Below, in pieces: positions 5,401-16,693 of a stretch of 21,200 nucleotides of DNA. Under the pieces are notes generated by a model, which was not told the DNA's origin, did not search any database, and worked only from the letters and a program-made list of their open reading frames with translations. A program made the translations under genes and the position numbers. Within the stretch, counting starts at the first letter, position 1; each line of letters opens with the position of its first letter. This stretch comes from a virus: positions 1 through 21,200 of IMG/VR virus record IMGVR_UViG_3300044675_008082. One strand, 5' to 3'.

Positions 5401-7586
5401 TTATCAATTTTTTGATTATATTCTTTATTACCACCAAATGCTTTTGGTGAATCAAAATAACCAATATAACTACCAACATCATTTAAACCTTCTGATTTAT
5501 TTACTATTTCTTGTGTGTATTTAAGTAATCCTCTTTTAAATGGGTTAACGGTTTGATTACCGTCAGCAGCAACTCTTTTTTGCCAAGAATAAGACTCACT
5601 TGTAAGACCTTCATTTGTGTTTTCCCCATAGGTACCGTGATAGTATGTATCGTACCCTAAATTTACTAATTCAGCGGGAATAGTACTAGGTTGAAATTCT
5701 AAAAGATCTGATTGTGATTTTGAATTTAAAGCTCCAGCTGTTTCTGTTTTACCAAAAAAACCTTCAACAGCCGGACTTGTTGTATAACCTTCTTGTGGGA
5801 CAGGTCCACCTTTTTTCTTTTCTGATGGGAAAAAATAATTTCCTTGATTATATTTTACGTAATCATTTTCTAAAGTAGGTCCGTATTTGTTAACATTAAC
5901 CGTATCAATGATTAAATTTCTGGTATGTTTACCTGTTTGGTCTAATAAATTACTACTAATATCAACTTCTTTGTAATTTACCCTATTTTCTGTAATCGCT
6001 CTACCTACTTGAATTGATTTCTCGTACTCTAATAAATTAAAATCACCTGGATTTAATATGGAATTAGGGTTATTAAATCCTGTTAATTTAGCTAAAAATT
6101 CTGCTGCCTTACCGATAGCTGTTTTACGTGAAGTAATAGAATAATTTTTAATAATTAAATCTTGTCCTGTTAATAAACCAATTGGACTTGTATTAATCAA
6201 TCCCACTGTATTATCAGTAAAGTTTAATTTAATTCTATTTAAAACTTCTACACCTCTTCTTTTTCTAGCTATTGTATCTAATTCCGAAATGTTTGTACCA
6301 TCGGGTTTGTAATTTATACCTGAACCTATAGTACTAAAAGGAATTACACCAACACCTAAAGTTCTACTAAATAGTTGGTCTCTAAAATCTCCTTGAATAC
6401 CTGGGTTATAAGATACAAAACCTGTACGATTATTTAATAACTCATCACCTGTAGTTCCGTAAGAAATTATTTGTGTTGGTCCGTATTTGTTATTCGCCTT
6501 TGTTAATAAGTCCCTATCTCTAATTTCTCTAGTTGTTATAACTTGTCCACCAGGTTTAACCCAAGAGTTAATATTACCAGCAAAACTTAATCTTAAAGTT
6601 TGTGGGACCCCATATGGTGTATTATAATCTCCTGACCATTGTTGGTAAACTGCCGCAAATTCAACTGGATACCAACTTAACAAGTCTTCTTCTGTAGGGT
6701 TTAAAGCTAGATTATCTGGTCTAGGTTGTGTAAAATTGTTTATCGTACTAGATATCTCTGATGCCTCCTGTACAGAAGGTAAATCAAGATTAGCAACATT
6801 TGAGTTGAACAAAGAAGTAGCGTCTTGACCTAAACCCGCTTGTTGTGGTGTAGTTTGCCCTAAAACATTGGCAACTTGTGGATTTATATCTTGTAAATTA
6901 CTACCAACATTTATTTGTCTTGGGTTTGTTAAATTATTGTATAAAGAAGGTGTTTCAGAAACCTCTTGGACTGAAGGTAAATCTATATTTGAAGTGTTTG
7001 GATTGAATAAAGAAGTCACATCTAAACCTAATCCCGCCTCTTCAGGTTTATCTTGACCTAAAACGTTAGCAACCTGTGGGTTTATGTTTTGTAAATTACT
7101 ACCAACATTTATTTGTCTTGGGTTTGTTAGGTTATTATATATAGAAGGTGTTTCAGAAACCTCTTGGACTGAAGGTAAATCTATATTTGAAATATTTGGG
7201 TTAAAAGTTACGTCTAATCCTAAACCAGCCTCTTCAGGTTTATCTTGACCTAAAACGTTAGCTATCTGCGGATTTATATCTTGTAAGTTACTACCAACAT
7301 TTATTTGTCTAGGATTGGTTAAATTATTATAAACTGAAGGCGTATTCGCAACTGTAGTTAAATTAGGTACATCTATAACGTTAAAAGTACTTTGACTAAC
7401 ATCATACTCTGTCCCTCTATCAGCCCAAGGATTACTTAAAACACTACTAATAACCGGATTTGGTGTTCCTAAATTATGTGTAAAAAGATAAGTTCTAAAA
7501 TCGGTATCGGTTATTGGTCCTAAAATACCACTATCAAACTTATCTATATTGTAATCAAAAGGATTTATTTGTGGACTGTTAGGCAT
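2484..7586 (-). CDS. Giant multidomain baseplate protein with N-terminal tandem repeats and an OmpA-like domain
   Basis: A 1700-residue protein starting at the ATG at 7586. Visible parts in order: residues 69-298, about three and a half copies of a roughly 66-residue repeat (core YNNLTNPRQINVGSNLQ); residues about 895-950, a baseplate-like segment (MWFPPYNMDFSES, then GRGEPIYTYNNTERSGSLSF and VDHPS) resembling the N-terminal domain of tube-initiator/LysM proteins of contractile tails; residues about 1015-1250, an OmpA-like domain (FKIYFDNAF; IQLYGYCSGAANKDYNLKLS; ARYVEVRLI); residues about 1360-1440, a second baseplate-type segment (VQPMIVKVDMGFKFIGG); residues about 1490-1540, a Thr/Val/Lys-rich linker. 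No signal peptide is present. The gene sits between the tape measure and small baseplate genes. I infer a structural hub or wedge protein that may contact peptidoglycan. Domain calls are from motif recognition only. Confidence 0.8.
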   Translation of the reverse strand: MPNSPQINPFDYNIDKFDSGILGPITDTDFRTYLFTHNLGTPNPVISSVLSNPWADRGTEYDVSQSTFNVIDVPNLTTVANTPSVYNNLTNPRQINVGSNLQDINPQIANVLGQDKPEEAGLGLDVTFNPNISNIDLPSVQEVSETPSIYNNLTNPRQINVGSNLQNINPQVANVLGQDKPEEAGLGLDVTSLFNPNTSNIDLPSVQEVSETPSLYNNLTNPRQINVGSNLQDINPQVANVLGQTTPQQAGLGQDATSLFNSNVANLDLPSVQEASEISSTINNFTQPRPDNLALNPTEEDLLSWYPVEFAAVYQQWSGDYNTPYGVPQTLRLSFAGNINSWVKPGGQVITTREIRDRDLLTKANNKYGPTQIISYGTTGDELLNNRTGFVSYNPGIQGDFRDQLFSRTLGVGVIPFSTIGSGINYKPDGTNISELDTIARKRRGVEVLNRIKLNFTDNTVGLINTSPIGLLTGQDLIIKNYSITSRKTAIGKAAEFLAKLTGFNNPNSILNPGDFNLLEYEKSIQVGRAITENRVNYKEVDISSNLLDQTGKHTRNLIIDTVNVNKYGPTLENDYVKYNQGNYFFPSEKKKGGPVPQEGYTTSPAVEGFFGKTETAGALNSKSQSDLLEFQPSTIPAELVNLGYDTYYHGTYGENTNEGLTSESYSWQKRVAADGNQTVNPFKRGLLKYTQEIVNKSEGLNDVGSYIGYFDSPKAFGGNKEYNQKIDKHGHSTGLKASSINIGGIPVVLPAVDPPKLPSRGNTAKNSTGEFYCRSWSSKRKYTSFENLIRGEKNWWLTTKPADVLGSDVPSNYSDLMTLNEVGMPKIAWEKDGVRELNIQENYIKLSAAKDLKNLAVFKPKVIPYMFSIENLAWVDAPQSAYLPLCEKGPNGGRIMWFPPYNMDFSESTSVNWDSTTMVGRGEPIYTYNNTERSGSLSFSIVVDHPSVLNQLRKDYAENIFDDVYHSFFAGCGNKDAYRDFIPPVIKDSTIEIPNTGVITPEVVKPKEPNDPPYTSFKIYFDNAFNDSKCSKDKLPCKEVQYINTTGQGRALSFTYEENDLVCNGNSRPGLNKLVENKLAETCQFLVGKSGLLINAQSPNQPTFNQKYEGQEDGKNYTIQLYGYCSGAANKDYNLKLSHDRILSVYNWMIQYLESIENGDPVKFGGSDKTYPTETQLRGGFDDFINSGQKGLRWEFYSLGDSASDPNSTNEEWAKEDTTGQDPCTSNQNSPDSYASKQARYVEVRLIKNPLNSTRISEQINNENQIVAQEKTKEEQAKKDAAQSIADSVAKSYIGECDYFQALKKSDSFIYNTLGEKLDNFHPAFHAITPEGFNSRLTFLQQCTRQGPQLIDIDSPQNMIFGRPPICVLKIGDFYHTKIVIDSVNFSFEPVQWDLNPEGIGVQPMIVKVDMGFKFIGGSSLGGPIKQLQNAVSFNFFANTGIYNTARAVDNYLAQREGALQKKVVYGGYITPGQENALYDVIKQSSVMTDKKIDTVTPQPKPVDVPSTNAQASTAVVSATTENQKTDVKKSAVTNKPATPVVGNTLDKVLFECKQNSAVFQQNGSYYISTQKISPVSASKTVYNKENLPKGVMGFGFWIKDYKVPAGQEGGLSTTQYNLGSRLFVQFLDGGVVNFIKTFNFSNPLDNVKKAVIIKKGTYYNFGQYDKNGQPLPLTIEINGTKTTDQGLFKLLDKIVANM
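6693..7382 (-). repeat. In-frame tandem repeats, about 198 bases per unit
   Basis: Within the 1700-residue baseplate gene, units begin near 7382, 7205, 7007 and 6809. The middle two are 66 codons each; the first is about 59 codons and the last is shortened and diverged. The units are very similar in DNA as well as protein: a stretch reading ctaccaacatttatttgtct recurs near 6901, 7099 and 7301. This suggests recent duplication. Each unit has the order LPSVQEVSETPS, YNNLTNPRQINVGSN, NVLGQDKPEEAGLGLDVT, rich in Asn, Pro and Gly, as in extended linkers or fibrous segments. Confidence 0.92.
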
Positions 7587-14028: not shown

Positions 14029-14508
14029 TTAATTAGGTTCTTTTAACCTAACACCGTATTCAACACCACCCTTATCAAAATAAGAGATTTCAACATTTTC
14101 AAGATGAGCGGGATAATCAGAACCAAAGATAAAATCGGACATATCTTTTGGTGTACCGTAAGCCTCTTCATCATCAAAAGAACCTAAAGCCAAACCAGTA
14201 CTTTTAGCTAATGCTGACACATCTTTCCATCTACTATAATCACGATTGTCTAATAAAACCAAATAAAATTTACAAACATTAACAAAGGTTTCAAAAGACC
14301 TTGGGTTTTCCATATTAAAAACAAATTCTTCTCTAAGATAAGCATCACTGTAGTCCCAACTAGTTTTCATAACAAAAAGATTTGATTTTGCTGGTCTATT
14401 TATTGGGTTTAACGCAACCTCAAATGGTAAATCTACACCACTAAACTGATTAGATAAATCATCCAACCAATCAGATTCTCTTAGTATTTTTTTTATTAAC
14501 GGTTTCAT
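14029..14508 (-). CDS. Unknown small protein with MKPLIKKILRE leader
   Basis: A 159-residue protein, last gene of a cluster of small minus-strand genes. It starts MKPLIKKILRESDWLDD, nearly the same leader as the two upstream genes (MKNLIRKILKE). The rest looks like a soluble globular protein with mixed helix and strand, many aromatic residues and no recognisable enzyme motif or membrane segment. Its first 38 bases overlap the 3' end of the preceding gene in a different frame, so translation is probably coupled. It ends against the shared terminator opposite the peptidase gene. I do not recognise the family. The leader, ending in L-R-E followed by Ser, could be a targeting or cleavable peptide; this is inference. 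Confidence 0.75.
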   Translation of the reverse strand: MKPLIKKILRESDWLDDLSNQFSGVDLPFEVALNPINRPAKSNLFVMKTSWDYSDAYLREEFVFNMENPRSFETFVNVCKFYLVLLDNRDYSRWKDVSALAKSTGLALGSFDDEEAYGTPKDMSDFIFGSDYPAHLENVEISYFDKGGVEYGVRLKEPN

Positions 14509-14947: not shown

Positions 14948-14952
14948 TTTAT
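14915..14952 (-). repeat. 38-base direct repeat, copy 1 (copy 2 at 15228-15265)
   Basis: Positions 14915-14952 and 15228-15265 are identical over 38 bases. Each copy covers the first 11 to 12 codons (MKNLIRKILKE) and the bases just before the ATG, including the stop codon region of the preceding gene. The identity extends upstream of the ATG, so it reflects a recent duplication or gene conversion of the whole gene start rather than protein constraint only. Confidence 0.93.
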
Positions 14953-15260
14953 ACTTTTACAATTTCATACTCATCACCAAAAATGTGATAAGGTCTATTT
15001 TTTTTTAAACTTGAAATTATTTTTTTTAAATCTCCTTTTTTATTTATTATTTTTGGGATTTCACCCTCGTCACTTTTTTCAAAAATATCGTTAACAAAAC
15101 CATTTAACAATAACTCATCATTATCATCTTGACCAACAAAAAATTTGGCACCAGTGGCTCCTGATTTTATAACGATTACATATCCTTTTAACTTTTTTTG
15201 AAAGTTAGGTTCTTCAAACCATTCGGATTCTTTTAATATTTTACGGATAAGGTTTTTCAT
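14949..15260 (-). CDS. Unknown small protein with MKNLIRKILKE leader
   Basis: A 103-residue protein starting at the ATG at 15260. It begins MKNLIRKILKESEWFEEPN, the leader shared with its two downstream neighbours. The body (KGYVIVIKSGATGAKFFVG and onwards) looks like a small soluble alpha/beta fold with a basic C-terminal half; no catalytic motif or membrane segment is seen. The start follows the endonuclease stop by 4 bases, and a promoter-like element overlaps the start directly, so it may be transcribed both with and without the endonuclease. The next gene starts one base after its stop. Family not recognised. Confidence 0.75.
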   Translation of the reverse strand: MKNLIRKILKESEWFEEPNFQKKLKGYVIVIKSGATGAKFFVGQDDNDELLLNGFVNDIFEKSDEGEIPKIINKKGDLKKIISSLKKNRPYHIFGDEYEIVKV

Positions 15261-15274
15261 TTTATTATAAATAT
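15260..15274 (-). promoter_or_regulatory. ATATTTATAATAAAA element at the 3' end of the endonuclease gene
   Basis: The 15-mer ATATTTATAATAAAA (minus strand) is identical to copies at 16722-16736 and 19306-19320. Here it spans the last codons and stop of the endonuclease gene and reaches the A of the next ATG. If it were a promoter for the next gene, transcription would start inside that gene, so a role in translation or as a recombination junction is equally possible. Confidence 0.35.
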
Positions 15275-16137
15275 TCAGATAATTTGGATTTTACAGAATC
15301 AATTGAATCATTTATATCTTTTTCCCAAAATCTTAAAAGCGGGATGTTATTTTTAACACACCAATCAGTTTTAATTTTATCCTTTTCTATATTTTTAAAT
15401 TGTGATTCATATACAGGTTTTGGGTGTTTACCATTAGGATTACAGTGCCAAAAATCACCATCAACTTCTATTAAAATATTATGTTTGGGTATATAGAAAT
15501 CGTAATAAGCCTTTATCTCCCTTACATAGTACTGTCTAACATATTCTACATTGGGAGGAATTAGGTTTAAAAATTTTTCTTCTAATTTTGATTTTACGGT
15601 AAAATCATTCTCACTCATCCAAACCATACGTTCATGTGATTTTTTTTCTCTGTTTTCATCTTTGGACCAATAGTTTAACATACCTTCATTTAATTTTTCT
15701 AAAACTTCTTTTGGTCGTTTTTTACCTTTTAAAGTTTTAGATATTTTTTCAGAACGTTCTTTGTTGGATGATATTTTTTCACCATAATTTAACCTTTTAT
15801 CTTGTTCTTTTGTTAAACCCTTATTCCATATTTTTAACTCACCGCTTTCATAAAGTTTTTTTTGGGTTTGATGTGATTTTTTATTAGCTTCAATATTATG
15901 ACCCCAATTGTTATTTATACGAGAGGCATGACCTAATATATATTTTACAAAACCTTTTTTGATTCCTAAAAAATTTGGTGTTTCTCCACAACCACAAGCA
16001 CATGTTGGTTTTTGACCTTTTAACTCATACTCTATGTATAAATCTTCAGGTTTTAATTTGTGTTTTTGAACATTATGGGAAGACAATCCCCATAAACTTT
16101 TAAATTCTAAATTACATTCTTTACAGATATATTGCAT
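15265..16137 (-). CDS. Free-standing homing endonuclease, Vsr-like (EDxHD) with zinc finger and NUMOD-type modules
   Basis: A 290-residue protein. Residues 5-26 form a C2H2 zinc finger (Cys5, Cys8, His21, His26). Residues 46-51 are CACGCG, a small cysteine motif common in phage endonucleases. Residues about 130-150 (ISKTLKGKKRPKEVLEKLNE) match NUMOD3-type DNA-binding modules. The C-terminal nuclease domain has SKLEEKF (Glu186/187), YDFYIP (Asp213), IEVDGDFWH (Glu224, Asp226, His231) and a lysine-rich helix ending LLRFWEKDI, the layout of Vsr-like/EDxHD nucleases. It lies directly after the intact tail tube gene and no intron is evident, so it is free-standing. Unlike every other gene here it has a strong ribosome-binding site, AAGGAGGA, 6 bases from the ATG and inside a hairpin. 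It is likely a mobile gene spreading by cutting sister phage genomes near the tube gene. Confidence 0.85.
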   Translation of the reverse strand: MQYICKECNLEFKSLWGLSSHNVQKHKLKPEDLYIEYELKGQKPTCACGCGETPNFLGIKKGFVKYILGHASRINNNWGHNIEANKKSHQTQKKLYESGELKIWNKGLTKEQDKRLNYGEKISSNKERSEKISKTLKGKKRPKEVLEKLNEGMLNYWSKDENREKKSHERMVWMSENDFTVKSKLEEKFLNLIPPNVEYVRQYYVREIKAYYDFYIPKHNILIEVDGDFWHCNPNGKHPKPVYESQFKNIEKDKIKTDWCVKNNIPLLRFWEKDINDSIDSVKSKLSEYL

Positions 16138-16143
16138 AAAAAA

Positions 16144-16178
16144 TCCTCCTTATATATAATAAATATACACAAGGAGGA
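16144..16178 (-). promoter_or_regulatory. Hairpin enclosing the endonuclease Shine-Dalgarno and a promoter-like loop
   Basis: On the minus strand TCCTCCTT (16178-16171) pairs perfectly with AAGGAGGA (16151-16144). The stem continues inward through seven more pairs, two of them G-T, to about 15 bp with a loop of about 5 bases. The AAGGAGG arm is the ribosome-binding site of the endonuclease gene. Six T (16143-16138) follow the stem and run up to the ATG, so the structure also has the form of an intrinsic terminator for the tail tube transcript. The inner part contains ATATTTAT, matching the promoter-like element found elsewhere in the window. Confidence 0.75.
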
Positions 16179-16204
16179 CAAAGTTCGTATTTGATAAAGG
16201 AATG

Positions 16205-16693
16205 CTAAAATACGTGGATCGCTCTATCGAAACGTAAAGTTCCGGTAATCTCAGCAATATCAGAAGATGAATAATCTAATGAACCAAAATCAACGTTTGT
16301 TAACATTGTACCTTGAAGAATCCATTTTTCAATTACAACACCTGTTGGGTCAAGTAATTCTAATTCAATATCTTTCTTATAACCTGCTGCGTAACCTTGA
16401 CGACCTGTTACAGATTCAGAGTGAAGACGTACCCACTCCATTAAAGCTTGTGCCGCTGAAGGACCAATTGGGTCACGGAATGTAACGTCAATAGTATCCC
16501 AAGTAAAACGACCAATTACCCATGTTGAAGTATTTAAGAATTGAATCTCAGTTTCTTCTTGAGAAATTTTTGGTCTTGATGAAGATTTCACAAACCATTC
16601 TTGAATTCCTAATGGTGAAGGGAATCTAAGGATAAATCTATTTTGTTTTTTCGGTTCGTAAGGAATCGGCATCCTCATTAATAAATCTGCCAT
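16205..16693 (-). CDS. Tail tube protein, T4 gp19-like
   Basis: A 162-residue protein, almost the same length as T4 gp19 (163 residues). It starts MADLLMRMPIPYEPKKQNRF and shows the tube-protein order: an N-terminal strand NRFILRFPSP, a central TWDTIDVTFRDPIG, a helix ALMEWVRLHSESV, then a strand-rich C-terminus ending GTLRFDRAIHVF. Such proteins stack as hexamers to form the inner tube of contractile tails. The codons are less AT-biased than those of its neighbours, as expected for an abundant virion protein. There is no Shine-Dalgarno sequence; the ATATTTATAATAAAA element lies 28 bases before the ATG. The stop is TAG, and the endonuclease hairpin follows 26 bases later. No sheath gene is visible in the window; it may lie further upstream. 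Confidence 0.87.
   Translation of the reverse strand: MADLLMRMPIPYEPKKQNRFILRFPSPLGIQEWFVKSSSRPKISQEETEIQFLNTSTWVIGRFTWDTIDVTFRDPIGPSAAQALMEWVRLHSESVTGRQGYAAGYKKDIELELLDPTGVVIEKWILQGTMLTNVDFGSLDYSSSDIAEITGTLRFDRAIHVF

Follow-up and report, generated by a model that had tools for sequence, protein, structure and literature searches.

Introduction

In phage T4 and Aeromonas phage Aeh1, expression of the homing endonucleases I-TevI and mobE is controlled by a hairpin that hides the endonuclease's ribosome-binding site in long transcripts, with a promoter within the hairpin giving rise to short transcripts in which the site is free (PMC2988022, PMC3014915). Judged from sequence, the hairpin that we describe here follows the same control logic as those of T4 I-TevI, I-TevII, I-TevIII and segB and of Aeh1 mobE. 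It lies between a tail tube gene and an endonuclease gene in a 21,200-nucleotide stretch of viral DNA (positions 1 to 21,200 of IMG/VR record IMGVR_UViG_3300044675_008082), hereafter the window. Our reading of the literature returned nothing relevant on tail-tube endonucleases in Bacteroidetes phages, on Bacteroidota phage late promoters or on promoters inside terminators. We conclude that the hairpin very probably exerts genuine control of the kind known from phage T4, and consider it likely that it acts as a three-in-one insulator between the two genes, combining a terminator, a translation lock and a nested promoter.

A Vsr-like homing endonuclease gene follows the tail tube gene

The gene behind the hairpin (15265..16137, minus strand) encodes a free-standing protein of 290 aa with a C2H2-like N-terminus and a C-terminal nuclease resembling Vsr and I-Bth0305I. 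A single-sequence PDB search yielded only spurious matches to deacetylases and zinc-finger proteins, and both profile and fold were needed: the alignment profile matches I-Bth0305I (3r3p, E 0.0066) and 3hrl, and an AlphaFold2 model (pLDDT 85) matches Vsr (1cw0, E 4.5e-4) and I-Bth0305I (3r3p, TMt 0.76). Pfam detected a weak N-terminal C2H2-type zinc finger, and the PHROGs matched are endonuclease families. Residues E186, D213, E224, D226, H231 and D253, invariant in an alignment of 36 sequences, are the putative catalytic acidic and histidine residues. With the fold and these residues both in place, the protein is, as judged by sequence and model, a Vsr-like, EDxHD-type free-standing homing endonuclease, predicted to cut and home. 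It resembles I-Bth0305I and the EDxHD endonucleases in its C-terminal fold and in the region that is matched (3r3p, 1cw0), but differs from the solved proteins in its N-terminal C2H2-like zinc finger, its free-standing nature and its weak sequence similarity.

The upstream neighbour, a T4 gp19-like tail tube protein gene (16205..16693, minus strand), was identified by similarity searches. For comparison we fetched 80 loci for the tube and 80 for the endonuclease, all of them metagenomic contigs that are not independent of one another. The endonuclease directly follows the tail-tube gene in 73 of 74 homologue loci, with tube identities of 33-100%. One contig binned as Candidatus Wolfebacteria (locus L171), which is probably a phage contig, carries both a tail tube and an endonuclease homologue, with a leader that lacks a strong hairpin.

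A stable hairpin separates the two genes

The hairpin occupies 16143..16179 on the minus strand, where folding pairs the 5' arm (16179-16164) with the 3' arm (16158-16143) around a loop (16163-16159); read 5' to 3', the layout between the tail-tube gene and the endonuclease ORF is GTCCTCCTTGTGTATA-TTTAT-TATATATAAGGAGGAT-TTTTT-ATG. Its stability is -22.3 kcal/mol in an 81-nt context (z -5.54), equalled by none of 200 shuffles, and a terminator scan placed the stem among the longest in the window. The preliminary description of this DNA had proposed a hairpin of roughly 15 bp with the ribosome-binding site in its 3' arm and six T up to the ATG. This arrangement is borne out by the fold, the stem length being corrected to 16 pairs (a count that includes a G-T closing pair): an SD-like AAGGAGGA lies in the 3' arm (16144..16151), and six T (16138..16143), which form a terminator-like signal with the stem, lead directly to the endonuclease ATG at 16137 (minus strand). 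The further claim that this is the only strong Shine-Dalgarno sequence in the window also holds, as AAGGAGG occurs a single time on the minus strand, at 16151; AGGAGG has one further minus-strand occurrence, at 6769, within a coding region. Nested in the 5' arm and loop is a promoter-like element, ATATTTAT (16159..16166, minus strand), recognised by its sense bias in relatives and, as had been noted, recurring upstream of other window genes.

The hairpin is conserved by compensating changes

Among 43 non-redundant endonuclease leaders, a hairpin abuts the ATG in 41 (z below -3); it is absent from two relatives, L132 and L133. The median z of the endonuclease leaders is -5.9, whereas 200 further genes from these phages have a median of -0.3. 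The preliminary description had asked whether the stem is kept by compensating changes in related phages, and such changes were found: across 35 distinct outer stems pairing amounts to 97.5%, as compared to 53.9% (maximum 61.8%) with the 3' arms re-dealt. Because folding was used to pick these stems, the value of 97.5% is in part a product of the selection, and the independent measure is how often a hairpin was detected, 41/43. Pairing was scored with each stem fixed at its base, the 5' arm being misplaced when the leaders are aligned with MAFFT. The variants seen in the leaders include TCCTCC/GGAGGA, TCCCTTTT/AAAAGGGA, CCTTTAC/GTAAAGG and CCCTC/GAGGG.

The T fraction at -7..-1 is 0.86 in the endonuclease family and 0.37 in other genes, the run being interrupted (TTACTTT) in part of the second clade. 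What the family conserves is the hairpin's shape together with the T-run, the nested element and the purine-rich character of the 3' arm, and not GGAGG itself; the nested promoter-like element and the hidden ribosome-binding site put forward in the preliminary description are seen across the family (counts below). Three tail-tube loci (L011, L032 and L050) have a similarly shaped hairpin with no endonuclease behind it, and may be decayed or empty sites.

An inverted copy of the tube gene end adjoins the hairpin

Between the tube stop and the hairpin, sequence comparison revealed a candidate operator (16190..16203, minus strand) that repeats, imperfectly and in inverted orientation, the tube gene's 3' end, which codes for FDRAI (ATTCCTTTATCAAA); in the second clade an MDYCI segment takes the place of FDRAI. 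The inverted copy is the common form (p<0.05 in 25 of 50 loci), and a direct duplication, significant in 6 of 50, is rare. The signal is weak in the window itself (p 0.075 at the near-identical locus L082) and clear in relatives, and it is also found at some loci without this endonuclease. Inverted copies at L099, L092, L120, L145 and L146 may represent an operator or an old homing footprint. We set aside the idea that the tube 3' end pairs with its inverted copy at the RNA level, as substitutions are uncompensated in the short-gap group. The operator of I-TevI resembles its homing site (PMC2988022), and the inverted tube-end copy is a candidate for a comparable relationship.

This neighbourhood raises the question of whether the hairpin itself is a DNA-level palindrome, an endonuclease binding or homing site whose folding as RNA is incidental. 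I-TevI does bind an operator lying across its late promoter (PMC2988022), and the inverted tube-end copy does adjoin the hairpin. A binding site, however, would keep its sequence, whereas here the stem varies freely in sequence, each time with compensation, and the flanks stay alike; the T-run, moreover, would be left unexplained. We consider this explanation very improbable.

A directional promoter-like element is nested in the hairpin

Upstream (≤60 nt) of 209 non-redundant genes of relatives, ATATTTAT occurs 57 times in sense and 11 times in antisense orientation. Its usual distance from the ATG is 22-26 nt, AAA follows at +12 to +14, and no clear -35 accompanies it in these upstream regions. 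Inside the endonuclease hairpins the exact octamer is present in sense in 26 of 41 cases and in antisense in one, with 0.9 expected from shuffles. The other 15 hairpins hold variants only, and three hairpins match no pattern that we used for the element. A nested element is present in 38 of 499 hairpins, nearly all of which precede endonucleases.

The T4 late promoter TATAAATA is not the element, being antisense-biased (7 genes in sense, as compared to 44 with its reverse complement). It and the directional element ATATTTAT/TATTTATA are reverse complements of each other, possibly by chance. In one sub-clade of the endonuclease family, and in most of a second family described below, TTGAC/TTTACA is found ~17 nt upstream of TATATT, and host-type promoter recognition is possible in these cases. 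Weak matches to a gp55 profile were detected in 6 of 12 related records, the window itself being too short for this comparison. Two proteins that we examined matched sigma-70 region 2 weakly, short of the Pfam cut-off, and one of them also gave a weak sigma-factor PHROG match.

By analogy with T4, we placed the nested transcription start ~6 nt behind the element, which puts the predicted 5' end of the window's nested transcript at 16152 (minus strand; leader UAAGGAGGAUUUUUU). This predicted transcript starts with UAAGGAGGAUUUUUUAUG, retains no hairpin pair and has no significant structure (z 0.18). By position only, the predicted transcripts of 38 out of 38 element-bearing endonuclease hairpins likewise retain no hairpin pair.

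The 3' arm is SD-like in phages that otherwise make little use of SD

Bacteroidia ribosomes largely disregard SD sequences, and strong SD sequences are favoured by ribosomes lacking bS21 (PMC9976891). The host group of the window's phage is suggested by its tube-protein relatives, which belong to Flavobacterium and Rhodothermus phages, although the best match is a Microcystis phage. Core SD motifs are not enriched at the gene starts of these phages (11 of 209, as compared to 13 of 209 in a control stretch). The 3' arm is nevertheless SD-like in 29 of 41 endonuclease hairpins and the 5' arm in none of 41, as against 19% (3') and 33% (5') in ordinary terminators of the same phages.

Could the strong SD be one that is used only by bS21-lacking ribosomes, as for rpsU in Flavobacterium? 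The preference of such ribosomes (PMC9976891) and the lack of SD before other phage genes would fit, but SD strength varies and 12 of the 41 relatives have no SD-like 3' arm, a bS21 gene was found in 0 of 11 related records, rpsU requires an extended SD, and the parallel presupposes a host that is itself deduced from relatives. We give this possibility very little credence. As part of a likely three-in-one insulator, the leader provides a natural test of SD-like leader use in hosts that normally ignore SD.

The hairpin probably terminates the tail-tube transcript

Of 71 loci that lack this endonuclease, 65 have a terminator behind the tube gene, usually with ATATTTAT further downstream; at the endonuclease loci, terminator and promoter-like element are merged in one hairpin. 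The comparison of phages with and without the endonuclease, suggested in the preliminary description, thus shows a terminator at this place in endonuclease-free tube loci as well. For this reason, a main function of the hairpin is probably to end the tube transcript, and it appears from the sequence to be the sole terminator of the tail-tube gene. The T-run argues for termination too: in an A-rich, SD-poor system, translation alone would give no reason to expect T-richness in a leader. Like intrinsic (Rho-independent) terminators, the structure, placed where the tube gene ends, has a stable stem-loop followed directly by a T-run; unlike them, it carries a promoter-like element in its loop, with the translation start right behind or inside the hairpin.

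Given that terminators stand behind the tube gene with or without an endonuclease, the hairpin might be a terminator only, its nearness to the ATG and to the promoter reflecting compact spacing; in another phage group, a terminator with no nested element abuts the ATG of a baseplate-like gene. Such spacing does not account for the orientation of the element within the stem-loop (26 sense versus 1 antisense), for the restriction of the SD-like 3' arm to the endonuclease family or for the placement of the start codon in the stem in the second endonuclease family, and we regard the terminator-only explanation as unlikely.

For the three-in-one insulator, we envisage the following sequence of events. 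The stem and U-tract would end the tube transcript. In read-through RNA, the ribosome-binding region would be buried in the 3' arm before the AUG, leaving the endonuclease untranslated. The promoter in the 5' arm and loop (ATATTTAT) would start a short transcript ~6 nt further on which, without the 5' arm, would have a free leader, and the endonuclease would thus be made from its own promoter only. Weighing against this scheme are the 12 of 41 relatives whose 3' arm is not SD-like, together with the general disregard of SD by Bacteroidia ribosomes, the interrupted T-run in part of the second clade, the 15 of 41 hairpins that hold element variants only, and the two relatives L132 and L133. As the upstream tube gene is itself late, insulation from a strongly expressed neighbour is more likely to be the purpose than a T4-style switch between early and late timing.

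The locus is a variant of T4-type control

As in T4-type control, a stem buries the ribosome-binding region of the endonuclease, and the predicted start lies such that the transcript would lack the 5' arm. When refolded, T4 I-TevII has TATAAATA in the hairpin, GAGG in the 3' arm and no T-run, and its layout is otherwise that of the window, in line with the parallel to T4 drawn in the preliminary description. Unlike in T4 and Aeh1, a U-tract follows the stem, making it terminator-like as well; ATATTTAT stands in place of TATAAATA; the nuclease family and host group are different; the neighbour is a late structural gene in phages otherwise not using SD; and a version with the start codon in the stem exists in the second endonuclease family. 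Because the T4 late promoter is absent, we classify the locus as a variant of T4-type control rather than a strict member. The comparison suggests that the way in which T4 silences a homing endonuclease is found again in phages of another host group, where nuclease family and promoter differ and termination is added. Such recurrence points to a general rule governing the coexistence of selfish endonucleases with essential late genes.

A second endonuclease family uses the same site

A second homing endonuclease family (~525 aa, phrog_3339; loci L179-L258 and positions 3264-4844 of L008) follows the tail-tube gene in 66 of the 76 loci where the upstream gene could be read, and stands in tandem behind the first endonuclease in 5 of 76 (L185 and L186 are examples). 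The tandem loci show that the hairpin travels with the gene, and not only with the site. Of the non-redundant second-family leaders, 34 of 43 have z below -3; the start codon lies in the 3' arm, with all three bases of the ATG paired in 33 leaders, and the T-rich tract coincides with FSFF codons. Within the hairpin, ATATTTAT has 30 occurrences in sense orientation, as against two in antisense. We tentatively suggest, as a possibility we would not favour outright, that the tube 3' end is a hot spot at which two endonuclease families separately acquired a terminator, promoter and start lock, along with an inverted, homing-site-like operator next to the promoter. If true, this would amount to a complete and self-limiting insulation cassette, thanks to which a selfish gene could stay downstream of a highly expressed structural gene at no cost.

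Several small proteins, encoded in the window at 14029-14508 and 14949-15260 and after the tube gene in L005, begin alike, with a sequence resembling MKNLIRKILKE that may serve as a tag for targeting or for a scaffold.
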